NCBI GenBank assembly: GCA_017435045.1
Contig: JAFSFT010000042.1
Coordinates: 1-32,369, forward strand
DNA length: 32,369 nt
Source of the DNA: Oscillospiraceae bacterium
GTDB taxonomy: Bacteria > Bacillota > Clostridia > Oscillospirales > Ruminococcaceae
Direction: 5' to 3'
Made by a program: the position numbers and the translations under genes. Positions 7,648 to 30,754 of the stretch are shown one piece after another. The notes under the pieces are model-generated. The model saw only the letters and a list, made by a program, of their open reading frames with translations, was not told where the DNA came from and did not search any database. The number at the start of each line of letters is the position of its first letter. The first letter of the stretch is position 1.

Positions 7648-8667
7648 CTATAAATCTCTGCCTATAACCTGTGCAATTTTTCGTGCCTTTTCGATAAGCT
7701 GTGCAAATTTATCAGGTTTCAGACACTGTGCACCGTCACTCCAGGCACATTCAGGCTGTTCGTGAACCTCGATAATAAGGCCGTCTGCACCTGCTGCAAC
7801 CGCTGCAAGGGACATTTTTTCGATGTATTTCCAGTTGCCTGTTGCGTGGGACGGGTCGATGATAATTGGCAGATGGGTACGTTCCTTGATAATTGGAATA
7901 ACCGAAAGGTCAAGGGTGTTTCTGGTATATTTTTCAAAGGTACGGATACCTCTTTCACAGAGAATAACCTTTTCGTTACCGTTTGCCATAATGTATTCGG
8001 CAGACATAATCCACTCTTCAATTGTGTTTGCAAGACCACGCTTTAAAAGGATTGGCTTTGTTGTACGCTTGCCCACAGCCTTCAGGAGTGTAAAGTTCTG
8101 CATATTGCGGGCACCAATCTGGATGATGTCCACATACTTTTCAAATTCGTCAATCTGGTCGGAATCCATAAGCTCACTTACAATAGGCAGGCCTGTGCGG
8201 TTGCGTGCCTCCACCATATCCAGAATACCCTCGGTTTCAAGGCCCTGAAAAGCATAAGGGGAGGTACGGGGCTTGTACGCACCGCCACGGAGCATAACCG
8301 CACCTGCTTCCTTTACCTTTTCGGCAAGGGAGCATATGTGGTCCATACCCTCAACAGAGCAGGGACCGCCGATAATAACGATTTTTTCATTTCCGCCGAT
8401 TTTTATACCGTTTACATCTATGATGGTATCTTCCGGATGGAATGCACGGTTTGCCTTTTTGTAAGGGGCCGCAATACGTGTAACATTTTCAACGATGGAA
8501 TTGGCTTTTATCTGTCTTTCATCAAGGTTGATTGTATCGCCGATAAGTCCGATAAGATGGTGGTTTTCGCCCACAGAATCGTGTACCTGAAAACCCTGTG
8601 CTTTAAAATCGGAAATAAGCTGTTCTATCTGTGCCGCATCGGCTGTTCTTTTTAATGTAATAATCAT
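7648..8667 (-). CDS. aroF: 3-deoxy-7-phosphoheptulonate synthase, type I-beta (promoter-distal copy)
   Basis: DAHP synthase condenses PEP with erythrose-4-phosphate to start the shikimate pathway. The 339-aa chain has an N-terminal ferredoxin-like regulatory domain (about 1-70, IITLKRTADAAQIEQLI), followed by the TIM barrel. Signature elements are IIGGPCSVEG, LRGGAYKPRTSPYAFQG, LLKRGL, LCERGIRTFEKYTRNTLDLS and IIDPSHATGNW. These provide the metal-binding Cys, His and acidic residues and the phosphate-binding Arg/Lys. It is adjacent and clearly paralogous to the next DAHP synthase, suggesting tandem duplication and different feedback specificity. It sits 119 bp downstream of its paralogue. The ribosome binding site is poor (AGGA at 11 nt). 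Confidence 0.94.
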   Translation of the reverse strand: MIITLKRTADAAQIEQLISDFKAQGFQVHDSVGENHHLIGLIGDTINLDERQIKANSIVENVTRIAAPYKKANRAFHPEDTIIDVNGIKIGGNEKIVIIGGPCSVEGMDHICSLAEKVKEAGAVMLRGGAYKPRTSPYAFQGLETEGILDMVEARNRTGLPIVSELMDSDQIDEFEKYVDIIQIGARNMQNFTLLKAVGKRTTKPILLKRGLANTIEEWIMSAEYIMANGNEKVILCERGIRTFEKYTRNTLDLSVIPIIKERTHLPIIIDPSHATGNWKYIEKMSLAAVAAGADGLIIEVHEQPECAWSDGAQCLKPDKFAQLIEKARKIAQVIGRDL

Positions 8668-8729
8668 ATATATTAATTCCTGACTTATGTTTTAAACTGT
8701 TTTATGGATTGAAATGCTGTTTTAAAGCA

Positions 8730-8760
8730 CCGTACCTATATTATTGTACTGATATTACGG
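8730..8760. other. Weak dyad between the two DAHP synthase genes
   Basis: CCGTA...TACGG arms with partly matching ATAT inner blocks lie in the 119-bp gap. It could be a weak stem-loop or binding site. No terminator-type U run or confident promoter was seen here. Confidence 0.2.
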
Positions 8761-8786
8761 AACATAATTTTAAACACAGCTGCATT

Positions 8787-9803
8787 TTATAAATCTCTGC
8801 CTACAACGTTGGCAATAACCCTTGCCTTGTCAATCATTTCCTTAAACTTTTTAGGCTTGAGGCTCTGTGCACCGTCGCTCCATGCTTCCTCCGGATTTGG
8901 GTGCACCTCTACGATAAGTCCGTCTGCACCCGCTGCGATAGCTGCAAGAGACATACTTTCCACAAGCTCCCAGTTGCCTGTTGCGTGGGACGGGTCGATG
9001 ATAATTGGCAGATGTGTCTTTTTCTTTACAATAGGCACAACCGACAAATCCAGAGTATTTCTTGTGTATTTTTCAAAGGTACGGATACCTCTTTCGCAGA
9101 GGATAACATTTTCGTTGCCGCCTGCCATGATGTATTCCGCACTCATAAGCCATTCTTCGATAGTATTGGAAAGACCGCGTTTCAAAAGGATTGGCTTGTT
9201 GATTTTGCCCAGAGCCTTAAGCAGGTCAAAGTTCTGCATATTTCTTGCACCAACCTGCAGCAGGTCCACGTGTTCCACAAATTCGTCAATTTTGTCTGCA
9301 GACATAATTTCGCTTACAATCGGCATACCTGTGCGTTTTCTGGCTTCCGCCATTGCAAGGATGCCCTCGGTGCCCATACCCTGAAATGCATAAGGAGAAG
9401 TTCTTGGTTTGTAAGCACCGCCGCGGAGCATACAGCCGCCTGCCGCCTTTACCTCCTCGGCTACAGAACAGACCATATCAAGCCCTTCTACCGAGCAGGG
9501 ACCGCCGATAACGACAATTTTTTCCTTGCCGCCTACTTTGATGCCGCCCACGTCCACAATTGTGTCTTCAGGATGGAAAAAGCGGTTTACCTTTTTATAA
9601 GGTGCTGCAACACGGGTTACATTTTCCACCCATGGGTTTGACATAAGCCTTTTTTCGTCCACAACGTGGGTGTCGCCTACAATGCCAAATACATTGTAGT
9701 TTGCACCGTGAATGATGTTCACCTGCAGGCCCTGACTTTCAAATGAATGTACTATCTTGTCAACCTCAGACTGCGGTGCGTCTTTTTTACAGGTTATAAT
9801 CAT
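8787..9803 (-). CDS. aroF: 3-deoxy-7-phosphoheptulonate synthase, type I-beta (promoter-proximal copy)
   Basis: This is the second DAHP synthase (338 aa). It has the same layout as its neighbour: an N-terminal ferredoxin-like domain (IITCKKDAPQSEVDKIV), then the barrel with VIGGPCSVEG, LRGGAYKPRTSPYAFQG, LCERGIRTFEKYTRNTLDLS and IIDPSHATGNW. The two copies agree closely in the barrel and diverge mostly in the N-terminal domain and mid-barrel helices, as expected if the regulatory ligands differ. Its ATG overlaps the stop of aroQ (ATGA, 9800-9803), and GGGAGAG precedes it, so translation is coupled. Which copy responds to Phe, Tyr or chorismate/prephenate cannot be read from the sequence. Confidence 0.94.
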   Translation of the reverse strand: MIITCKKDAPQSEVDKIVHSFESQGLQVNIIHGANYNVFGIVGDTHVVDEKRLMSNPWVENVTRVAAPYKKVNRFFHPEDTIVDVGGIKVGGKEKIVVIGGPCSVEGLDMVCSVAEEVKAAGGCMLRGGAYKPRTSPYAFQGMGTEGILAMAEARKRTGMPIVSEIMSADKIDEFVEHVDLLQVGARNMQNFDLLKALGKINKPILLKRGLSNTIEEWLMSAEYIMAGGNENVILCERGIRTFEKYTRNTLDLSVVPIVKKKTHLPIIIDPSHATGNWELVESMSLAAIAAGADGLIVEVHPNPEEAWSDGAQSLKPKKFKEMIDKARVIANVVGRDL

Positions 9804-10240
9804 AATTTATACTCTCCCTTTGCCAATGATTCTATGGCCATTACATAGCCGTTTATACCCTGACCTGTTATTGTTCTGTAACAGGCCTGTCTTATATACG
9901 ATATCTGGCGGAAGTCCTCTCTGTCCTCAACTTTGGAGATATGCACCTCCACTGTCGGAATGGAAACCGCCTTTACTGCATCCAGAATTGCCACCGAGGT
10001 GTGGGTATATGCGCCCGGATTGATAACTATACCGTCCACGCCGTTAAAATATGCCCACTGGATTTTGTCCACAAGGTCCCCCTCGTGGTTGGACTGATAG
10101 CATTCAATATCCACTCCAAGCTTTTCTCCTGTATTTCTGCAGGTTTCAATAAGTGTGTCAAAATTTTCGCTGCCGTAGATATGTTTTTCCCTTATGCCCA
10201 GCATATTGATGTTGGGCCCGTTAATAACCAGTATTTTCAT
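9800..10240 (-). CDS. aroQ: 3-dehydroquinate dehydratase, type II
   Basis: AroQ removes water from 3-dehydroquinate to give 3-dehydroshikimate (third shikimate step). Type II enzymes are about 145-150 aa dodecamers. From the chosen start this is 146 aa, beginning MKILVINGPNINMLG. The catalytic-loop Arg and Tyr lie in IREKHIYG, the imidazole in NPGAYTHTSVAI, and the substrate-binding stretch is VEVHISKVEDREDFRQ. A longer reading frame to 10303 exists, but its extra 21 residues look like read-through of the upstream gene in another frame. GGAGG lies just before 10240, inside the end of aroE-aroK, which it overlaps by 20 bp. Confidence 0.93.
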   Translation of the reverse strand: MKILVINGPNINMLGIREKHIYGSENFDTLIETCRNTGEKLGVDIECYQSNHEGDLVDKIQWAYFNGVDGIVINPGAYTHTSVAILDAVKAVSIPTVEVHISKVEDREDFRQISYIRQACYRTITGQGINGYVMAIESLAKGEYKL

Positions 10241-11465
10241 TCCATACCTCCAGCAGTTTTTCCAGTGCGGTGTTGAAGTGGCCGTTGTTTTCCACCACAG
10301 CATCGCTGTATTTTTTGTACAGAGGCTCCCGCTCCTGCTTTAATTTTTTAATTGTCTGTGCATCCTTCGACAGCGGTCTGTCCCCGCCGATTGCCAGTTT
10401 TTCCAGTCTGCGGTCGATATACACCACAAAACCATTAAGGCTTAAAGCGTGCATATTTATCTCGTTTTTTACAATGCCTCCGCCACAGCTGATAACCGTA
10501 TGGTTGCGTTTTGCCGTTTCTGTGGCAACTTCTGTTTCAATCTGACGGAAACCGCCTTCGCCGATTTCTTCAAAAATCTGCGGAATTTCTTTGCCCGCCG
10601 CTTTCACAATCTCGGCATCAAGGTCAACAAAATCCATTCCCAGCTTTTTTGCAAGTTTTCTGCCAAGGCTTGTCTTGCCGCAGCTTGGCATACCGATAAG
10701 TACAATATTCTGCTTGTCGTGATACAGCTGTGCGGTGATTTTCTTTATAACCGAATGGTCCGCTGCTTTATCCGTAAAAAACTCCACAGCGGAAACCGCC
10801 TGTCCGACAAGCATTTCAAGACCCGCAATATAGGGTATTTCCTTTTTCTTTGCCTGATAGCAGAGGCTGGTCATAAGCGGATTGTATACCACATCTATAA
10901 CACCTTTGCAGTCAGGAAAATCGTCAAGATTCACAATTGATGACATTATATCCGGCAGCATACCCACACTGGTTGTGTTGATGATAAATTCTGTATCACT
11001 GCGTTCCTTCATCTGATTGTAGGTTATAAAAGGCTCGCCTTTATTTCTTGCCACACGGATTATTTCTTTTGCACCAAGAGAAGCACACACTGCAAAAGCA
11101 GTTTTACTGGTGCCGCCCGAACCGCAGATGGCTACAGTCTTGCCCTTTATATCAAAATGGTTTTCAATCATCCATTTTAATCCGTCAAAGTCGGTGTTTG
11201 TTGCATAAAGCTTGCCGTCTGCATTCTTTATTGCGTTTACCGCACCGATTTTCTTTGCCTTTTCGTCGATAAAGTCACAGTACGGCATAACCATCTCCTT
11301 GTAGGGAATGGTTACATTGATTGCATCAAAAGCCTTGTTTTCCATAAAAACAGGAAATTCCTCACGGGTTAAAGGCATTATATCGTAAGTGTAATCCGCA
11401 ATCTGCTCGTGTATCGGTTTGGAAAAACTGTGCCCCAGTTTTTCGCCTATAAGTCCAACCTTCAT
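10221..11465 (-). CDS. aroEK: Fused shikimate dehydrogenase-shikimate kinase
   Basis: One 414-aa chain carries two consecutive shikimate-pathway enzymes. Residues 1-250 are AroE: GHSFSKP (11-17) binds shikimate, Lys56 in TIPYKEMV and Asp92 in NTDFDG form the catalytic pair, GSGGTSKTA (115-123) is the NADP+ Rossmann loop, and GLEMLVGQA (215-223) closes the site. Residues 251-414 are AroK: the P-loop is GMPSCGKTS (258-266), DLD (281-283) positions shikimate and Mg, GGG is at 328-330 and the lid contains GGDRPL with Arg363. Both halves look complete. The linker is short (about 245-252). The ATG at 11465 overlaps the aroC stop (ATGA), with AAAGGTGG upstream. An in-frame start 4 codons earlier is less likely. 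Fusion should channel shikimate to shikimate-3-phosphate. Confidence 0.94.
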   Translation of the reverse strand: MKVGLIGEKLGHSFSKPIHEQIADYTYDIMPLTREEFPVFMENKAFDAINVTIPYKEMVMPYCDFIDEKAKKIGAVNAIKNADGKLYATNTDFDGLKWMIENHFDIKGKTVAICGSGGTSKTAFAVCASLGAKEIIRVARNKGEPFITYNQMKERSDTEFIINTTSVGMLPDIMSSIVNLDDFPDCKGVIDVVYNPLMTSLCYQAKKKEIPYIAGLEMLVGQAVSAVEFFTDKAADHSVIKKITAQLYHDKQNIVLIGMPSCGKTSLGRKLAKKLGMDFVDLDAEIVKAAGKEIPQIFEEIGEGGFRQIETEVATETAKRNHTVISCGGGIVKNEINMHALSLNGFVVYIDRRLEKLAIGGDRPLSKDAQTIKKLKQEREPLYKKYSDAVVENNGHFNTALEKLLEVWNENTGY

Positions 11466-12547
11466 TCGCAAAGCCACCTTTCGCCATAACGCTGTACCAG
11501 CAAATCCAGCAGTGCCAGTGCTGTCATGCTGTCCACAACAACCCTTGCACGATGGAAAATTGCAGGGTCGTGACGTCCCTTTAAGCTGAGGGAAGCATCT
11601 TCCATTGTTTCAAGATTTACAGTATCCTGCTGTCTGAAAATCGACGGAGTCGGCTTTACCGCAACACGGAAAATCATAGGCATACCATTGGATATACCGC
11701 CGTTGATGCCGCCGTTGTTGTTGGTTTTTGTTACCACTTTGCCGTTTTTCATCTCAAAGGCATCGTTTGCCTCGCTGCCAAGACAGTCGGCAAAGCCGAA
11801 GCCAAGGCCGAATTCCACGCCTTTTACTCCGCCGATGGAGAACAGGTAGCTGCTGAGCACGCTTTCTATGGAGCTGAAATATGGCTCGCCAACTCCTGCA
11901 GGCATCCCCAGCACACAGGTTTCCAGCAGGCCGCCCACGCTGTCGCAGTCTGCACCGGTTTTTTCTATATGCTGCTGCATCTGTATACCTGCAGCTTTGT
12001 CCAGTGTTGCAAAGTATTCCGAGTTGCAGATGGCGATATCCTCTGCATAGTCTGCAAACTCTCTGTCAGAAATATGCTGACATTTTTTTATATGTGTACC
12101 AATTGTTATCCCTTTTTTGGCAAGGATACTGATGGCTATTGCCCCTGCCGCAACGATGGGTGCAGTAAGACGTCCCGAAAAATGTCCGCCGCCGCGATAA
12201 TCCTCAAAACCTGCATACTTTATATGGGCTGCATAATCTGCGTGGCCCGGACGTGGCAGCTGTGGCTGATAGTCACCGCTGCACTGGTTTTTATTCTCTA
12301 TGGTTATATGTATGGGAGTGCCTGTGGAAAAGCCGTTAAACACACCGCTGGTAATTACAAAATCGTCCGTTTCCCTGCGCTGTGTGGAGATTTTACCCTT
12401 TGGCTTGCGCTTGTCCAGCTGGCTCTGAATAAAATCTGTATCTATCTTTATCCCTGCAGGCAGGCCGTCCATAACAATGCCGATGGCGGCACCGTGACTT
12501 TCGCCATAGAGAGATACTGTAATATTTTTACCTGTTACGCTTTTCAT
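11462..12547 (-). CDS. aroC: Chorismate synthase
   Basis: AroC eliminates phosphate from EPSP to give chorismate, using reduced FMN. The 361-aa length is typical. N-terminal GESHGAAIG contains the conserved His18, GGGHFSGRLTA holds the second active-site histidine, and GGISNGMPM and RHDPAIFHRA are the FMN/phosphate-binding signatures. No flavin-reductase domain is attached, so it is a monofunctional enzyme dependent on cellular reduced flavin, as suits an anaerobe. The start lies 3 bp after the aroB stop, with CGGGAG inside the end of aroB. Its stop overlaps the aroE-aroK start. Confidence 0.96.
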   Translation of the reverse strand: MKSVTGKNITVSLYGESHGAAIGIVMDGLPAGIKIDTDFIQSQLDKRKPKGKISTQRRETDDFVITSGVFNGFSTGTPIHITIENKNQCSGDYQPQLPRPGHADYAAHIKYAGFEDYRGGGHFSGRLTAPIVAAGAIAISILAKKGITIGTHIKKCQHISDREFADYAEDIAICNSEYFATLDKAAGIQMQQHIEKTGADCDSVGGLLETCVLGMPAGVGEPYFSSIESVLSSYLFSIGGVKGVEFGLGFGFADCLGSEANDAFEMKNGKVVTKTNNNGGINGGISNGMPMIFRVAVKPTPSIFRQQDTVNLETMEDASLSLKGRHDPAIFHRARVVVDSMTALALLDLLVQRYGERWLCE

Positions 12548-19362: not shown

Positions 19363-19378
19363 TTCACTATATATATTT
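19363..19378. promoter_or_regulatory. NrdR-box-like site 1 (upstream)
   Basis: TTCACTATATATATTT resembles the ACAC-(A/T)-ATATAT-(A/T)-GTGT NrdR box in its left half and centre. Its centre is 32-33 bp from site 2, about three helical turns, the arrangement known for paired NrdR boxes. Confidence 0.5.
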
Positions 19379-19391
19379 TACCTTTTTCCAC

Positions 19392-19420
19392 TTTACACAC
19401 AATATATTGGATAGTATAAT
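19392..19420 (+). promoter_or_regulatory. nrdD promoter
   Basis: TTTACA (19392-19397), a 17-bp spacer and a perfect TATAAT (19415-19420). The spacer is nearly filled by an NrdR-box-like site, so NrdR binding would block RNA polymerase. Confidence 0.75.
19397..19412. promoter_or_regulatory. NrdR-box-like site 2 (in the promoter)
   Basis: ACACAATATATTGGAT contains the perfect 10-bp palindrome CAATATATTG and matches the NrdR consensus except at the right end. It overlaps the -35 to -10 spacer of the nrdD promoter. Confidence 0.65.
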
Positions 19421-19481: not shown

Positions 19482-21800
19482 ATGCTTACAAGTATCATCA
19501 AAAGAGACGGCCGTGTGGTTATATACGACCGAAACAAAATCAAGATGGCAATACTCAAGGCTATGGAAGCAAGCGGCAGCACAGATTTTGAAAAAGCCGA
19601 CCTTGTAACACAGGCTGTTGAACAGCATTTCAATATGCAGAACAGCTATGCCACACCAAGTGTTGAAGAAATTCAGGACCAGGTTGAGCACGAGCTTATG
19701 GCAAGCGGTCTGGACAATGTTGCAAAAAGATATATCCTGTACCGTGCATCCAGAAACACAATCCGCGAAAGAAAATCCAAGCTGGTTAAAGTTTTTGACG
19801 AAATCACTTTCAGCGATGCTCTGGACAGCGATGTTAAGCGTGAAAACGCAAATATCGACGGCGATACACCAATGGGCACAATGCTTAAATACGGCAGTGA
19901 AAGCGCAAAGGACTATTTCCTCAAGTTTCTTTTAAGCCCTGACCAGGCAGAAGCACACCGTGACGGCTATATCCACATTCACGACTTTGACTTCTATGCA
20001 CTTACAATGACCTGCTGTCAGATTGACCTTATCAAACTGTTCAAAGGCGGCTTCTCCACAGGTCACGGCTTCCTGCGTGAACCAAACGATATCCAGAGCT
20101 ATTCCGCCCTTGCATGTATTGCAATCCAGTCCAACCAGAACGACCAGCACGGCGGCCAGAGTATCGTAAACTTTGACTACGGCCTTGCAGACGGTGTAAG
20201 AAAAACATACAAAAAGCTTTATCTCAAAAACATCGCAAAGGTTTGTGATGTGCTTGGTGAAAACGTAAGCTACGAACAGCTTAAAGAAATGAGTGCCGCA
20301 ATTACAGAAAGATGCGGTGCAATGCCAAAAATCACACCTGACAAAACTTATGTTGCACTTGAACTGGAAGAACTGAAAAAACTTTGCAAGGACCCTGCTG
20401 TTGCAGAAAAGGCACAGAAATTTGCCCTCGAAAAGACAGAGGACGAAACAGACAAGGCAACCTATCAGGCTATGGAGGCATTTATCCACAACCTTAACAC
20501 AATGCACTCCCGTGCAGGCGCACAGACACCTTTCTCCTCCATCAACTACGGTATGGATACTTCTGACGAGGGCAGAATGGTTATGAAAAACGTTCTGCTG
20601 GCAACAGATGCAGGTCTCGGCCACGGCGAAACACCAATATTCCCAATCCAGATTTTCCGTGTTAAAGAGGGCATCAACTACAACCCTGGCGAAAGAAACT
20701 ACGATTTGTTCCAGCTTGCCATCAAGGTTAGTGCAAAGAGACTGTTCCCTAACTTCTCTTTCCAGGATGCACCATACAACCTTAAATACTATAACCCAGA
20801 CGATGTAAGAACAGAAATCGGTTATATGGGCTGCCGCACACGTGTTGTGGCAAACACATACGACCCTAATAATGAAATTACATACGGCAGAGGCAACCTT
20901 TCCTTCACCTCAATCAACCTGCCAAGACTTGCTATCGAGGCAAAAGGTGATGAAGATTTGTTCTACCGCAATCTGAAAAAATATCTCGACCTGTGTGTAA
21001 AACAGCTTATGGACCGTTTTGCAATCCAGAAAAAGAAACGCGTAAGAAACTTTCCGTTCCTTATGGGTCAGGGCGTATGGATTGACAGTGAAAAACTTGG
21101 TATCGACGATGAAGTGGGCGAAGTAATCAAACACGGTACACTTTCCGTTGGCTTTATCGGTCTTGCAGAAACACTTACTGCACTGTACGGCAAACACCAC
21201 GGCGAAAGCGAAGAAGCACAGAAAAAAGGCCTTGAAATCATCGGCTTTATGAGAAGAATTCTTGACGAATACTCCGACAGATTCAAGCTTAACTTCTCCC
21301 TCCTTGCAACACCTGCAGAAGGTCTTTCCGGCAGATTTGTAAGAATTGACAAGAAACGTTTTGGCGAAATTAAAGGTGTTACAGACAAGGAATACTACAC
21401 AAACAGTTTCCACATTCCTGTATCCTTTGAAATTTCCGCCTATGACAAAATCAACCTTGAAGCACCTTACCACGCACTTACAAACGCAGGCCATATCACC
21501 TATGTTGAAATGGACGGCGATGTAAGCCAGAATCTTGAAGCCTTTGAGGCAGTTGTAAGATGCATGAAGGAAGCAGGCATCGGCTACGGTGCAATCAACC
21601 ACCCTGTTGACCGTGACCCTGTCTGTGGTTACAACGGCATTATCGGCGATGTTTGCCCTCGCTGCGGCAGACGTGACGGCGAAGGTGTGCCACTGGAAAA
21701 ACTGCACAGACTTGGACTTTACAAGCATCTTAATGCTGCAACTCTCGGTCAGTGCGGCAACCAGTTTGAAGAAGCAGACAGAATTCCAAACAAAATTTAA
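19482..21800 (+). CDS. nrdD: Anaerobic ribonucleoside-triphosphate reductase large chain, lacking the glycyl-radical motif
   Basis: Class III ribonucleotide reductase makes dNTPs without oxygen. The 772-aa chain has an N-terminal ATP-cone (1-100, IIKRDGRVVIYDRNKI) and the ten-stranded barrel. Its active-site features are a Cys pair MTCCQ (178-179), HSRAGAQTPFSSINYG (342-357) and the thiyl-radical Cys451 in YMGCRTRV. The C-terminal zinc region reads NHPVDRDPVCGYNGIIGDVCPRCGR (Cys715, 725, 728), with Asp712 where a CxxC would put its first Cys, and a late Cys758. After this the usual RxTGYL radical loop is absent. The chain instead ends LGQCGNQFEEADRIPNKI. The missing loop is encoded by the next gene. 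No nrdG activase lies nearby. An AGAGGAAG site precedes the start. Confidence 0.9.
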   Translation: MLTSIIKRDGRVVIYDRNKIKMAILKAMEASGSTDFEKADLVTQAVEQHFNMQNSYATPSVEEIQDQVEHELMASGLDNVAKRYILYRASRNTIRERKSKLVKVFDEITFSDALDSDVKRENANIDGDTPMGTMLKYGSESAKDYFLKFLLSPDQAEAHRDGYIHIHDFDFYALTMTCCQIDLIKLFKGGFSTGHGFLREPNDIQSYSALACIAIQSNQNDQHGGQSIVNFDYGLADGVRKTYKKLYLKNIAKVCDVLGENVSYEQLKEMSAAITERCGAMPKITPDKTYVALELEELKKLCKDPAVAEKAQKFALEKTEDETDKATYQAMEAFIHNLNTMHSRAGAQTPFSSINYGMDTSDEGRMVMKNVLLATDAGLGHGETPIFPIQIFRVKEGINYNPGERNYDLFQLAIKVSAKRLFPNFSFQDAPYNLKYYNPDDVRTEIGYMGCRTRVVANTYDPNNEITYGRGNLSFTSINLPRLAIEAKGDEDLFYRNLKKYLDLCVKQLMDRFAIQKKKRVRNFPFLMGQGVWIDSEKLGIDDEVGEVIKHGTLSVGFIGLAETLTALYGKHHGESEEAQKKGLEIIGFMRRILDEYSDRFKLNFSLLATPAEGLSGRFVRIDKKRFGEIKGVTDKEYYTNSFHIPVSFEISAYDKINLEAPYHALTNAGHITYVEMDGDVSQNLEAFEAVVRCMKEAGIGYGAINHPVDRDPVCGYNGIIGDVCPRCGRRDGEGVPLEKLHRLGLYKHLNAATLGQCGNQFEEADRIPNKI

Positions 21801-21933
21801 TCGATACCACTCACACAATTTCTGCATTGACCAACTTTAGGCATATATGTAGCATCCGATGCCGTAATATGTACCACAAAGCAGCAATTGCAGAATTATG
21901 ATAAAAACTTTTTAATATAAAGGAGGCACAATT

Positions 21934-22092
21934 ATGACATACAATCCAGATACACAGATGGTTGGCGAAGGCGTTAAATTCGAGAGAATCCGCCGCATTA
22001 CAGGTTACCTTGTTGGTACAGTGGACCGTTTTAACGACGGCAAACGTGCCGAAGAAAGAGACCGTGTAAAACACGACCCTACAAAATGTTAA
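21934..22092 (+). CDS. Separate glycyl-radical domain of class III ribonucleotide reductase (52 aa)
   Basis: The 52-codon gene encodes just the C-terminal part of NrdD: KFERIRRITGYLVGTVDRF (residues 15-33), then NDGKRAEERDRVKH to residue 47. Gly24 in RRITGYL is in the position of the radical glycine of class III reductases. The gene has a near-perfect AAAGGAGG site 7 nt before its ATG. It lies 133 bp after nrdD and in a different frame, and a strong terminator follows 34 bp later, so it is expressed on purpose and in the same transcript. It should dock to the large chain and receive the radical from an NrdG-type activase, much as YfiD supplies a spare domain to pyruvate formate-lyase. The N-terminal 14 residues look unstructured. 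Confidence 0.85.
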   Translation: MTYNPDTQMVGEGVKFERIRRITGYLVGTVDRFNDGKRAEERDRVKHDPTKC

Positions 22093-22126: not shown

Positions 22127-22174
22127 CAACAAAAATGACAGCCGTTATCCAGTTGGATAATGGCTGTTTTGTTG
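22127..22174 (+). terminator. Strong terminator after the radical-domain gene
   Basis: CAACAAAAA-TG-ACAGCCGTTATCC pairs with GGATAATGGCTGT-TTTGTTG over more than 20 bp. It has A and T runs on both sides, so it can also end the convergent gene at 22183. Confidence 0.88.
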
Positions 22175-26521: not shown

Positions 26522-28552
26522 TTATTTGAAAAGATTTTTAAACCAGTTAATTATACTGTCAAACAGACCTATGTCTTCCACTGTAGTCTGTACAGGCTTA
26601 TTCTGCTGATTCTGACGTGCCCACTGGGCGTAGAGGGTTACATCCTCAGTTATAACAAAGGTGTCTTCAGGGCGGTATTCCGTTCCGCTGCCGTCCGCTT
26701 TGGTATTCCAGCCGATAAACTCTATGCCGCCAAGCTCATCCTCGTTTTCATAGTCACAGTATCTGACCACTACAGTATCTCCCGGCATATAGCTGTTTTT
26801 GTCGCTGACAAATTCGCTGCCGCCGTTTGCACCGTATTTTACATAGACTGCATCTTCCGAAAGGAATTTATCCAGAAATTCCGCTCTTTTTTCTATATAA
26901 TCGGCCATCTTTTCAATCTCGTCAAGATAAAGCTGTGCAGCCTGTACGTTATCTATATATGCGGTTCTGCGCCATCTGTAGTAGTCTGCGACTGCAGAAT
27001 CGTAAATGCTGTCCGCCACATCCTGCTGCATATCAGAAAGCCATTCTATCTGCGGGCGGAAAACTTCCTTCCACTGTCTTGCCGCTTCCCTGCGGAATTC
27101 GGGGTGCTGCCACAGCAGAGAAAAGATGGTGTATGTATTTTTCTGATTATACAATGTACCTTTTGCCACCCATATGTTTTCGGGATTCGAGATATTTCTG
27201 TCTGCATCTGATACCTCGTCTCCAAGGGCGTGGTCAAAATCCCACGGGGAACACATTGCCAGTTTTCCGTTTACGTCCTTATAAAGAAACGCCGATGTAA
27301 GTGCCGCATCAAGATTCTGCACAAACTCCTGAACAATGTACATCCTTGCCATAGATTCCATATCTATATACTCGGTGTAATGTCTGCCCAAAGAGTTATA
27401 TCCATCTGCATTGAGCACTGCATCCTCAAACTCCTGATAATAACCGCTTATGTATTTTACCTGTGCTTCAGATGCGTATTCAGGACTTCTGACGGTGACA
27501 ATCTGTCCGTAGTTGCTTACAAAACCGGTCTTTGCAGCTGAATATCTCTCAAACAGATCCAATTCTATGAGATATCCGCCGTCAATGCCCTTTGCTATAT
27601 CGTTAGGCACCTCCAGCCATTTGCAGCTGCCCTTTTTCTTGTAGGCATCCTTGCCGTATTCACCACCCTGCGGCAGATTTTCAAGATCCGTGCCACGGTT
27701 GGATTCTTCGGTTATAATGTCAACATCAAATATTTCCACACGGCCATCTGCAACCTCTACCTTTTCTGTAAGCTGATAGATGCCAAGATATTCGTTGTTT
27801 ATATACAGTTCCGCAAACTGAGACTGAGTACAGTATTCCACTCCTGCCTTTTCAGCAAAATCTATGGTAACTTTGTTTCTTATAATAGCTTCATCTATAA
27901 AATTGGCAAGCAGATTGTATTTTCTGGAAGGCTCCATACCAAAAAGGCTTACCTTTTGGGAAAGCTTTATGCTGTATGGCTTTTTATCGGCATTCCAGCT
28001 TACGTTGCCTCTGCCTTTCAAAGTTTCCATACCGCCGCTGTAATAGATTTCAGTACCGTCTGTTATAACCATACTGCCTGCGGTTTCGTTTTCCTTGTCC
28101 TCGTGTATATAGCTGAGCGGCTGCTGTGTGTCTATATAAATCTGCGGCACGTCACTTGTATACATTACATTCAGATAACCTGTTGTGCCGCCGCATTCAA
28201 ACTGATGTACCCCTCTGCCGAGCACAGTTAATGTATTGTCGGAAAGCTGCCTGCCGTCCATAATCACGTCAGCTTCCGCCGATACAAGCAGAGATACCTC
28301 TTTGTTTTCAAGCACATACGGCAGTACAAGGGTGTATTCTTTGCCCATATATGTCTGCACTCCGTTTTCATCCGTGGCAGTCTTTTCCTTTTCAAATGCC
28401 TTTACTCCGTATTCAAAACCATTTGGCAGAGTAAAATTTACCGCAAAGTCAACACTTGCCTGCTCCGCAGAAGCTGCCACAGCAAACACGACAGTCGCTG
28501 CTGCCACTGCAAGCATTGTGAGTATTCTTTTTATGCCTGTATGTTTTTTCAT
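26522..28552 (-). CDS. Secreted CotH-kinase-family protein with Listeria-Bacteroides repeat (copy 1)
   Basis: CotH-type atypical protein kinases phosphorylate secreted proteins. This 676-aa protein has a signal peptide (about 1-29, ending AASA) and an N-terminal beta domain (about 30-150). The CotH domain (about 160-560) contains LKGRGNVSW...KKPYSIKL (178-197), KYNLLANFIDEAIIRNK (211-227), a Glu-rich ELYINNEYLGIYQLTEKVEV (249-267) and the metal-binding SPWDFDHALGD (435-445). A Flg_new/InlB-B-type repeat follows (about 575-650, GWNTKADGSGTEYRPED...LYAQW). It ends in the amphipathic LFDSIINWFKNLFK. No LPxTG anchor is seen. The substrate is unknown. Despite the family name, a spore-coat role is not implied. 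Confidence 0.88.
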   Translation of the reverse strand: MKKHTGIKRILTMLAVAAATVVFAVAASAEQASVDFAVNFTLPNGFEYGVKAFEKEKTATDENGVQTYMGKEYTLVLPYVLENKEVSLLVSAEADVIMDGRQLSDNTLTVLGRGVHQFECGGTTGYLNVMYTSDVPQIYIDTQQPLSYIHEDKENETAGSMVITDGTEIYYSGGMETLKGRGNVSWNADKKPYSIKLSQKVSLFGMEPSRKYNLLANFIDEAIIRNKVTIDFAEKAGVEYCTQSQFAELYINNEYLGIYQLTEKVEVADGRVEIFDVDIITEESNRGTDLENLPQGGEYGKDAYKKKGSCKWLEVPNDIAKGIDGGYLIELDLFERYSAAKTGFVSNYGQIVTVRSPEYASEAQVKYISGYYQEFEDAVLNADGYNSLGRHYTEYIDMESMARMYIVQEFVQNLDAALTSAFLYKDVNGKLAMCSPWDFDHALGDEVSDADRNISNPENIWVAKGTLYNQKNTYTIFSLLWQHPEFRREAARQWKEVFRPQIEWLSDMQQDVADSIYDSAVADYYRWRRTAYIDNVQAAQLYLDEIEKMADYIEKRAEFLDKFLSEDAVYVKYGANGGSEFVSDKNSYMPGDTVVVRYCDYENEDELGGIEFIGWNTKADGSGTEYRPEDTFVITEDVTLYAQWARQNQQNKPVQTTVEDIGLFDSIINWFKNLFK

Positions 28553-28684
28553 AAACCTGCTCCGTTCCCCATATCGTCAGGGAAACACTTTTCTGTATTT
28601 TATACAACAAAATATTATCTGACTGTCAGCCAGAACCATCTGTATCTATTGCACATATCTCCACTTCAGACTGGCATATCGGTG

Positions 28685-30694
28685 TCAATTCAAAAATAAA
28701 GACGCAAACCAGCCCTTTATCCTGTGCCACAATCCCAACGGCTGCACTGCTGCCGCTGTGTCCTGCACTTCAAGACCATTCCACTGTGCATAGAGTACAA
28801 CGCCGTCATCCTCTATTGTGATAATATCGCCAGGCTGATAGCTTTTTCCGCTGCCGTCCGCTTTTGTATTCCAGCCTGTAAAATCCGCATTGCCGCCGTC
28901 AAATCCGTTTTCCGCCACGACAACTTCACTGCCCGGCATATAGGAATACTTGTCCAGCACAACACCCTCTGCACCATTGCGTTTATAACTTACATACTGT
29001 GCCTTGCTGCTGAAAAATTCCGACATAAACTCTGCCCTGCGCTGCAGGAACTCCCTTAGCCACTCGTTGGCATCTGTAAAAATCTCAATACCGCCATTGT
29101 CCGGTATCCAGCGCAGCTGATTTGCCGCTGCGGAATCTGTAATAAGCACTTCAAGCTCTGCCGCCCTGCCAATCACTGTATCTATATGCGGTGCAAAATT
29201 TTCCTCCCAGCACTTTGCCGCAAGCTGACGGAATTCCTCGTGCTGACAAAGCAGGGTAAATATACATTTTTCCTGTTTTCGCTTCTGTGTGCTGACAGTA
29301 GCCCATATGGCCTCGGGGTCCTTAAGACTTATTCCGTCTATCTCCAGGTCCCTGCCGAAAGCATTATCCATATCCCACACAGTGCACATTGTCAGCTTGC
29401 CGTTTACATCCTTGTACATATATGCCGAGGACATTGCCGCATCAAGGTTCAGTGCATACTCCTGAAAAACATACATTTTCGCAAAGGATTCCACGTTTAT
29501 GTAATCGCTGTAGTGTTTACCGTATGCGTTGTATCCGTCATCACTCAGCAGTGCATCTTCAAACTGCTGATAATATTCTCTTATATATTCAACCTGCCCT
29601 TTTGTGGCATATTCGGGACTTTTTATTACCACAGGCTGTCCGTAATTAGAAACAAATCCCGATTTTTCCGCGTCATATCTCTTGTCCAGGTCATATTCCA
29701 GCAGATATCCGCCGCCAAGGCTGTCCGCCATGGTGTTTGGTATATCCACCCATTTGTAGCCACCCTTTATACTGTAGGAATCTTCGCCTGTATCCCCCAG
29801 ATTTTCAAGGGCTTCCATATCCACCTTTGGGTTAAGCTGCCCGTTTACATCCTCAAGGTCAAATATGCTTATCCTGCTTGGGTCTATTTCCACCCTTTCG
29901 GTAAGATAAAACAGGCCGCGGTATTCACCGTTGACATACATATCCACAAAGCTGCCGTCCATACAGTATTCTATGCCTGCCAGTTTTCCCAGCATTGCCG
30001 CAACAGGTTCACGCACGGAACTGAAGTCAAAATAAAACGGCATAACAGCATATTTTCTGGACGCACCCATACCGAACATATCGGTCTTTGCCGCCAGCTT
30101 TATATTGTAGGATTTCTTTGTCAGCAGAAAAGAGGAATTGCCTCTGCACTTTATATATTCAAGTGCGCCGTCATATTCCGTGGTGCTTCCGTCCTTTATA
30201 ACAATTTTTCCTTTTGTTTTAAGGCTTTTATCCGACTCTATATCAGACAGCTCGTCCTCTAACGTAAGATACATCTGTGGAATATCACTTGTGTATTTTA
30301 CTATGAGAGGGTGTTCTTTGCCGCCGGCAGATATGGTGTATTCCCCTTCCTCCAGCAGATAGCTTTTTCCGCTGTGATACTCTTTTCCGTCCTTATACAG
30401 CATATCAATATTGGAAAACTCCAGCACAACTTCCCTGCCCTTTATGCTGTGCGGAAATACAAAGCTGTACTGCTTGTAGTGGTCAATCAGCACATGGTTT
30501 TCATCGTAAATATATTTTCTTTCATCAATAATATCGGCAGTATACTCAAATCCGTCAGGCAGGGTAAAATGAGCCGCTGCAGATATCTGCTTTTTATCCT
30601 CTGCGGCTGATGACGGCAGTGCAAACAAGGCTACCAGAAAGACAGCCAACAAGGAATATATTACAATCCTTTCAAGTTTTTTAACCGCAATCAT
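28685..30694 (-). CDS. Secreted CotH-kinase-family protein with Listeria-Bacteroides repeat (copy 2)
   Basis: This is a paralogue of the preceding protein with the same layout: signal peptide (ending ALPSSA), N-terminal beta domain and CotH kinase domain. The CotH domain shows IKCRGNSSFLLTKKSYNIKL, KYAVMPFYFDFSSVREPV, DMYVNGEYRGLFYLTERVEI and the TVWDMDNAFGRD metal site. It ends with the GWNTKADGSGKSYQPGD...LYAQW repeat. The C-terminus is LWHRIKGWFASLFLN, matching the tail of copy 1. Start 30694 is chosen because AAAGGA lies 7 nt before it; a 16-codon extension upstream lacks a site and would precede the signal peptide. It differs from copy 1 at the RGN-W motif (Phe for Trp) and in the Leu-Ala-Asn segment, so activity may differ. 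The gap between the copies is 132 bp. Confidence 0.88.
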   Translation of the reverse strand: MIAVKKLERIVIYSLLAVFLVALFALPSSAAEDKKQISAAAHFTLPDGFEYTADIIDERKYIYDENHVLIDHYKQYSFVFPHSIKGREVVLEFSNIDMLYKDGKEYHSGKSYLLEEGEYTISAGGKEHPLIVKYTSDIPQMYLTLEDELSDIESDKSLKTKGKIVIKDGSTTEYDGALEYIKCRGNSSFLLTKKSYNIKLAAKTDMFGMGASRKYAVMPFYFDFSSVREPVAAMLGKLAGIEYCMDGSFVDMYVNGEYRGLFYLTERVEIDPSRISIFDLEDVNGQLNPKVDMEALENLGDTGEDSYSIKGGYKWVDIPNTMADSLGGGYLLEYDLDKRYDAEKSGFVSNYGQPVVIKSPEYATKGQVEYIREYYQQFEDALLSDDGYNAYGKHYSDYINVESFAKMYVFQEYALNLDAAMSSAYMYKDVNGKLTMCTVWDMDNAFGRDLEIDGISLKDPEAIWATVSTQKRKQEKCIFTLLCQHEEFRQLAAKCWEENFAPHIDTVIGRAAELEVLITDSAAANQLRWIPDNGGIEIFTDANEWLREFLQRRAEFMSEFFSSKAQYVSYKRNGAEGVVLDKYSYMPGSEVVVAENGFDGGNADFTGWNTKADGSGKSYQPGDIITIEDDGVVLYAQWNGLEVQDTAAAVQPLGLWHRIKGWFASLFLN

Positions 30695-30754
30695 CTTTAT
30701 TCCTTTACGGAAGAAACACTGTACTGAAATTATGCACGGCATTTACAGTTCCGT

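Follow-up and report, generated by a model that had tools for sequence, protein, structure and literature searches.

The locus described here raises the question of how an anaerobic ribonucleotide reductase (RNR) could work when its catalytic chain lacks the glycyl-radical loop. Within the window, i.e. the whole stretch of 32,369 nucleotides analysed here (Oscillospiraceae bacterium, contig JAFSFT010000042.1), an initial annotation had described a class III RNR divided into a 772-aa chain and a separate 52-aa glycyl-radical protein, and both open reading frames (ORFs) were found where it had put them (Table 1). We consider it very probable that this locus encodes a two-polypeptide class III RNR.

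The 772-aa ORF matches the NCBIfam model PRK07111 (anaerobic ribonucleoside triphosphate reductase) over residues 1–768 and Pfam NRDD (PF13597) over residues 121–732. As had been annotated, the chain carries an ATP-cone and Cys451 and no radical loop, the Pfam match stopping at NRDD position 531 of 562. Cys451 aligns with the cysteine of MGCRTRV in Prevotella copri NrdD, Asn472 was also located, and Cys178 is presumably the first active-site cysteine of class III RNR. Near the C terminus, Cys715, Cys725 and Cys728 are invariant across 61 aligned rows, fused rows included, and the first cysteine of the P. copri zinc-site stretch aligns with Asp712. Structure prediction of the large chain alone gave the fold of NrdD. 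With an NRDD catalytic core and a finger-loop radical cysteine in the chain, and with a glycyl-radical loop and NrdG both encoded in the same genome (G000), the system falls within class III RNR in the broad sense; it is not a single-chain NrdD, because the radical loop is absent from the catalytic polypeptide. Pfam gave no match to PF02867 (class I/II RNR) in the chain, and none was found in the window's genome. The chain, being NRDD and not class II, also differs from the split class II RNR NrdJa/NrdJb, a B12-dependent enzyme in which no glycyl radical is known to be involved. The promoter-like site upstream of both genes is not evidence of function, since 10 such sites were found against 7.3 in shuffled sequences. 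Two CAC..ATATAT-type motifs about 33 nt apart, at window positions 19365–19410 upstream of nrdD, were also seen, and we take them to recall NrdR boxes.

The small gene begins 133 nt past the stop of the chain, in another frame and with a Shine-Dalgarno sequence ahead of it, and a terminator-like stem of 14 pairs lies on its 3′ side, all in agreement with the first description. The PF13597 profile is divided cleanly between the two ORFs, positions 1–531 falling in the large one and 532–562 in the small one, where the match is above the cut-off. This was the only Pfam family matched by the small protein at E values up to 0.01. The absence of a Pfam match to PF01228 (the pyruvate formate-lyase-type Gly_radical domain) in the small protein places it outside the YfiD/GrcA family. 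For the small proteins tried, scans against Pfam, NCBIfam and PHROG returned NrdD families only, and no family for the small protein alone was found in them. Gly24 aligns with the glycine of RITGYL in P. copri NrdD; located in the sequence and aligned to this protein, both Gly24 and Cys451 stand at the positions given in the initial annotation. A profile of 12 small proteins also matches P. copri NrdD (E 5e-12). In the alignments to P. copri NrdD the chain extends up to chain index 706 and the profile of the small proteins takes over from 709 on, and because the two meet there, the cut can be placed between the zinc knuckle and the radical loop. At L046, L047, L048, L050, L051, L136, L151, L314, L319 and L325 the radical protein is longer, with about 50 extra residues at its N terminus; Pfam scans of three long proteins, L046, L047 and L052, the last of which differs, showed no match in the extra stretch.

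Table 1 Features of the split nrdD locus (window positions) and radical genes beside oxygen-defence genes (positions in their own loci)
Feature	Position	Strand	Evidence or remark
Promoter-like site upstream of both genes	19392..19420	+	Consensus scan, 11/12 matches
NrdD catalytic chain, 772 aa, without glycyl-radical loop	19482..21800	+	
ATP-cone, residues 4-92	19491..19757	+	PF03477, 75 bits
Cys178 codon	20013..20015	+	Invariant column, 61 aligned rows
Cys451 codon, predicted thiyl-radical Cys in MGCRTRV	20832..20834	+	Alignment to P. copri NrdD; invariant, 61 rows
Zinc-knuckle Cys715, Cys725, Cys728	21624..21665	+	Invariant in 61 aligned rows; putative metal binding
C-terminal tail of truncated chain, residues 733-772	21678..21797	+	Low pLDDT, 36-58
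Shine-Dalgarno AAAGGAGG of small gene	21919..21926	+	Sequence
Putative autonomous glycyl-radical subunit, 52 aa	21934..22092	+	PF13597 532-562, E 3.3e-8
Gly24 codon, predicted radical glycine (RITGYL)	22003..22005	+	Invariant in 12 small proteins
Terminator-like stem-loop, 14 pairs, after small gene	22137..22168	+	
Radical genes beside oxygen-defence genes	L239:5903-8324; L244:1837-3479; L235:6241-7004; L326:1654-3814		

At the loci examined, drawn from many assemblies, we found 89 distinct pairs of a truncated chain and a downstream radical gene. The gaps in these pairs measure 1–216 nt, their length modulo 3 being 0, 1 or 2 in 33, 34 and 22 pairs, respectively; in the window's genus alone, the 15 split loci have gaps of 13–155 nt and show all three frame relations. 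Both pieces are under purifying selection with pN/pS of about 0.10 (for the radical protein 0.102, over 38 codons; for the chain 0.097, over 40 codons from Cys725; 15 genomes, 105 pairs). Chance and assembly error, including the faulty assembly that the initial annotation had weighed against its own reading, are ruled out by the 89 pairs in many assemblies, the three frame relations and the low pN/pS. Recoding, splicing and sequencing error were rejected because the frame relations vary and synonymous change far exceeds non-synonymous change. Given that intron- or intein-interrupted nrdD genes are known from phages (available text of PMC3653736), a single polypeptide might be made here after all through programmed frameshifting, ribosome bypassing, an intron or an intein. 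We regard this as highly improbable in view of the varied gaps and frames, of the Shine-Dalgarno-like match ahead of the small gene in 87 of the 89 pairs (starts having been picked with this match as a criterion), of the selection that acts on the chain end itself in the window's genus, and of the genomes G030, G252 and G286, in which the radical gene and the catalytic chain lie on different contigs.

Many gut anaerobes encode their anaerobic RNR in this divided way, with a large catalytic chain and, apart from it, a tiny putative radical holder. When a split was called from a catalytic match ending at profile position 530–542 together with a separate radical match, a truncated NrdD with a separate radical gene was found in 26 of 61 genomes, a set made up of the window's genome and 60 relatives. 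Fifteen of the 16 genus members, the window's genome included, have the split form, the other one (G002) having full-length NrdD only; outside the genus it was found in G019, G021, G023, G027, G030, G033, G035, G039, G048, G052 and G059. In a wider sample of the class the split form was rare (2 of 98 genomes, G000 and G048), and a sample of the phylum gave 6 of 99 (G000, G232, G252, G271, G286 and G297). The radical part of G232 and G271 was read in a 101-aa ORF, in which Pfam does not report it, and in G297 a radical SAM gene stands between NrdD and the separate radical ORF, which reads YSRVVGYL. Among the best 80 of at least 576 relatives in the genome collection, 71 were split, 7 had no chain upstream and 2 were fused, counts from a scan that, like the viral one below, began from an alignment of autonomous radical domains and favours that type; the named hosts include Bacillota, Mycoplasmatota-named MAGs, Succinivibrionaceae and Desulfovibrionaceae.

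Conserved adjacency, which the initial annotation had left to comparison with other genomes, was observed, the chain and the small gene recurring side by side in relatives. Among the 61 genomes, ten from outside the genus have an adjacent pair, and in nine of these nrdG comes directly after the small gene (G019, G021, G023, G027, G033, G035, G048, G052 and G059; the exception is G039). A sequence pattern for nrdG was matched at 40 of 79 split loci, with two loci leaving no room for it, and this is a lower bound since the pattern misses cases such as L034. In G232 and G271, nrdD, the 101-aa radical protein and a radical SAM gene stand in a row (Pfam for L314 only). The window's genome has NrdG elsewhere, with a match above the cut-off at G000:C40:14885-15325. 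Beside the complete NrdD of this genome, described below, a further nrdG (L002:3364-3929) is broken into two frames of 88 and 118 aa, possibly by assembly error.

In searches for NrdD and PF02867, the split enzyme was the only RNR detected in 5 of the 26 split genomes (G019, G027, G030, G039 and G052); the listed completeness of G019 and of G030 is 100%. MAGs can miss genes, and as some genomes gave only weak, incomplete PF02867 matches, a distant class II enzyme could have escaped detection. The same result was obtained for 10 of 24 further genomes, which were chosen for holding the small radical gene and come without completeness figures: Succinivibrio dextrinosolvens DSM 3072 (G111), Massiliimalia timonensis (G112), G114, G117, G118, G119, G120, G124, G130 and G134. 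The initial annotation had called the detached domain obligatory, and this agrees with the 15 split genomes in which no other RNR is detectable but not with the window's genome, where a second, complete NrdD is encoded (G000:C39), as it is in 14 genus relatives with the split form. A second full-length nrdD had been named as an objection to the split reading, and it applies in part: because this gene is present, the split copy need not be essential in the window's organism. The complete NrdDs in these 15 genomes might even allow the pair to be a decaying pseudogene, tolerated thanks to the second enzyme. Such decay is hardly credible, since pN/pS is low for both pieces, the named residues of the catalytic chain are invariant over the 61 aligned rows, 15 other genomes have no other RNR detected, and in the window's genome the nrdG that looks broken is the one beside the second NrdD.

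In the two-polypeptide enzyme, the ATP-cone, the barrel, the zinc knuckle and Cys451, the predicted thiyl-radical residue, all belong to the large chain, and the 52-aa protein has nothing beyond the radical loop and the stretch at the C terminus. The small protein may dock at the site that the C-terminal loop occupies in ordinary NrdD, NrdG would put the radical on Gly24 in trans, and the radical would then pass to Cys451 for nucleotide reduction, the predicted contact between Gly24 and Cys451 resting on homology. Oxygen cuts glycyl radical enzymes at the radical glycine. Because the oxygen-cleavable part would be a separate and cheap protein, the cell could renew it and keep the catalytic chain that it already has. 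We read the small protein as a candidate autonomous, exchangeable radical subunit for class III RNR, similar to YfiD and Y06I and not of that family, which supports the comparison with YfiD already drawn in the initial annotation.

A refinement, which does not exclude the two-chain reading, is that the selected role of the small protein is replacement after oxygen damage. It would then be a spare part in the manner of YfiD, and the split organisms would have lost the fused loop later; we put the chances of this at about even. G025, G029, G034 and G043 have long separate radical genes in addition to complete NrdDs, and a separate radical gene accompanies a complete NrdD in G197 and G209 as well, which speaks for this role. 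Further support comes from 4 of 30 radical-gene loci away from a catalytic chain, in three lineages, where superoxide reductase, rubredoxin, rubrerythrin or flavodiiron genes are neighbours (Table 1). With Pfam support, desulfoferrodoxin, rubredoxin, the radical gene and a flavodiiron protein form a row in G117, and the radical gene adjoins a flavodiiron gene in G118 and G197 and a rubrerythrin gene in G119. Against the refinement stand the other 26 of the 30 loci, which have other neighbours, and the fact that the oxygen-defence link was noticed after the fact; in addition, no oxygen-defence gene was identified beside the window's own pair. Some stand-alone radical genes lie in prophages, e.g. 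L238, where a tail-tube gene directly precedes.

A scan of viral contigs that began from the same alignment of autonomous radical domains gave 412 stretches encoding relatives. Among the best 80 of these, 78 have a small radical frame with no catalytic chain within 1.5 kb upstream (3 of the 78 lie within 1.5 kb of the contig start), one is split and one lies in a longer frame. No catalytic chain match was found anywhere in 46 of 50 viral records of 15.6–76 kb taken from the best 80 (six others above 15 kb are outside this set), the other four having a match; such records may be fragments, and as near-copies exist (L202/L203, L227/L233), they are not equivalent to independent events. The viral radical proteins are of the autonomous type, as judged from their sequences: the motif G-x-[GNDAET]-[VITKQARY]-x before the loop is present in 69 of 69 distinct viral and 74 of 77 distinct small genomic proteins and in 1 of 35 fused ones, and 79 of 79 viral rows were closest to small genomic proteins, counts that are inflated because the search began from the autonomous type. 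The small part that phage sequences carry alone is possibly a plug-in spare.

Eight viral loci were picked because their neighbours resembled lysis genes or nrdG; a holin or endolysin was clearly matched beside the radical gene in five (L155, L165, L173, L179 and L215), L199 gave a weak lysis match, L160 none, and L230 an nrdG. A single weak holin match was seen among nine further viral loci, and other viral neighbours are tail-fibre, terminase, methyltransferase and reverse-transcriptase genes. At L230 (L230:4475-6291) an nrdG-like gene (phrog_626) directly precedes the radical gene, and no catalytic chain was found in the 48-kb record. A reverse transcriptase follows the L230 radical gene, and in L204 one lies two genes upstream of the radical gene. 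As several radical genes stand beside holin and endolysin genes, which suggests late expression, the phage domains might instead inhibit or hijack the host NrdD, for instance by faulty exchange. This is improbable in our estimation, since each of the 79 viral rows retains the radical loop (the search motif itself requires the loop) and the nrdG-like gene at L230 speaks for activation.

Changes between the fused and the split form are repeated. On a FastTree tree of 141 catalytic cores (57 fused and 84 split, split rows being over-represented since the scans began from autonomous radical domains), 19 changes of state are needed compared with about 44 for shuffled labels, and at least 6 of the 19 are forced by starred branches. 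In G209 a complete NrdD, a separate longer radical gene and an nrdG-like/radical SAM gene stand in a row, and the starred sister of G209 in the tree, L151, combines a long radical protein of this kind with a chain without the fused loop. In G286 the chain breaks off within the loop (FERIHRITE), and a different contig carries a long radical gene. These three look like steps from fused through fused plus spare to split, the direction being our inference, and suggest a path from spare part to obligatory subunit. A separate radical gene with RRITGYF was seen in G322 and G292 (L322:4243-4503 and L323:3667-3924, both on the minus strand), where alike neighbour genes suggest conserved synteny.

Considering all these occurrences, we lean somewhat towards a common scheme, in which host operons, oxygen-defence clusters and phages would all encode one autonomous radical subunit fitting the same host catalytic chain. 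A phage would thereby supply or renew the radical, once by means of an NrdG that it encodes, and make use of the host's synthesis of DNA precursors with no enzyme of its own, and lineages would have passed repeatedly from fused through fused plus spare to an obligatory split.

Compared with single-chain NrdD (P. copri, T4, S. thermophilus and T. maritima), the ATP-cone, the core fold, the finger-loop cysteine, the zinc-knuckle region and the radical loop are all recognisable, whereas the radical loop is a separate product of 46–90 aa (89 pairs) and the large chain has its own terminal tail. YfiD (GrcA) of E. coli and Y06I of phage T4 are likewise small autonomous glycyl-radical proteins, phage-carried too (available text of PMC8683613), but the protein described here has another target enzyme and no Pfam Gly_radical match. 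According to the same text, YfiD repairs a complete but cleaved enzyme, whereas the catalytic chain here is made without the loop. YfiD and Y06I, both for pyruvate formate-lyase, are the only validated spare parts named there, with the remark that others might exist (PMC8683613). An RNR made as two chains is also seen in the class II enzyme NrdJa/NrdJb (PMC9669993 and PMC4520616). The nrdD genes of phages phiAS4, c-st and 949 are in pieces as well; introns, inteins or an unknown process are given as the cause of their interruptions, which the available text does not present as a conserved cut ahead of the radical loop (PMC3653736). In the literature covered, which takes in few subscription papers or bioRxiv preprints, neither a split radical loop of NrdD nor an NrdD spare part was found described. 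The locus provides concrete candidates for spare parts of class III RNR, which is the sole RNR detected in several anaerobes, and makes testable the loading of a radical by NrdG on a detached loop, the safekeeping of a free radical protein, and the steering of host DNA synthesis by a phage via a 50-aa part.

Elsewhere in the window, on the minus strand, two adjacent DAHP synthase genes (PF00793 with a ferredoxin-like domain) lie at 7648-9803 in an apparent aromatic amino-acid cluster, and one ORF at 10221-11477 carries both shikimate dehydrogenase and shikimate kinase domains. Two adjacent large look-alike ORFs occupy 26522-30742 of the same strand, the first with CotH kinase and Listeria-Bacteroides repeat domains.
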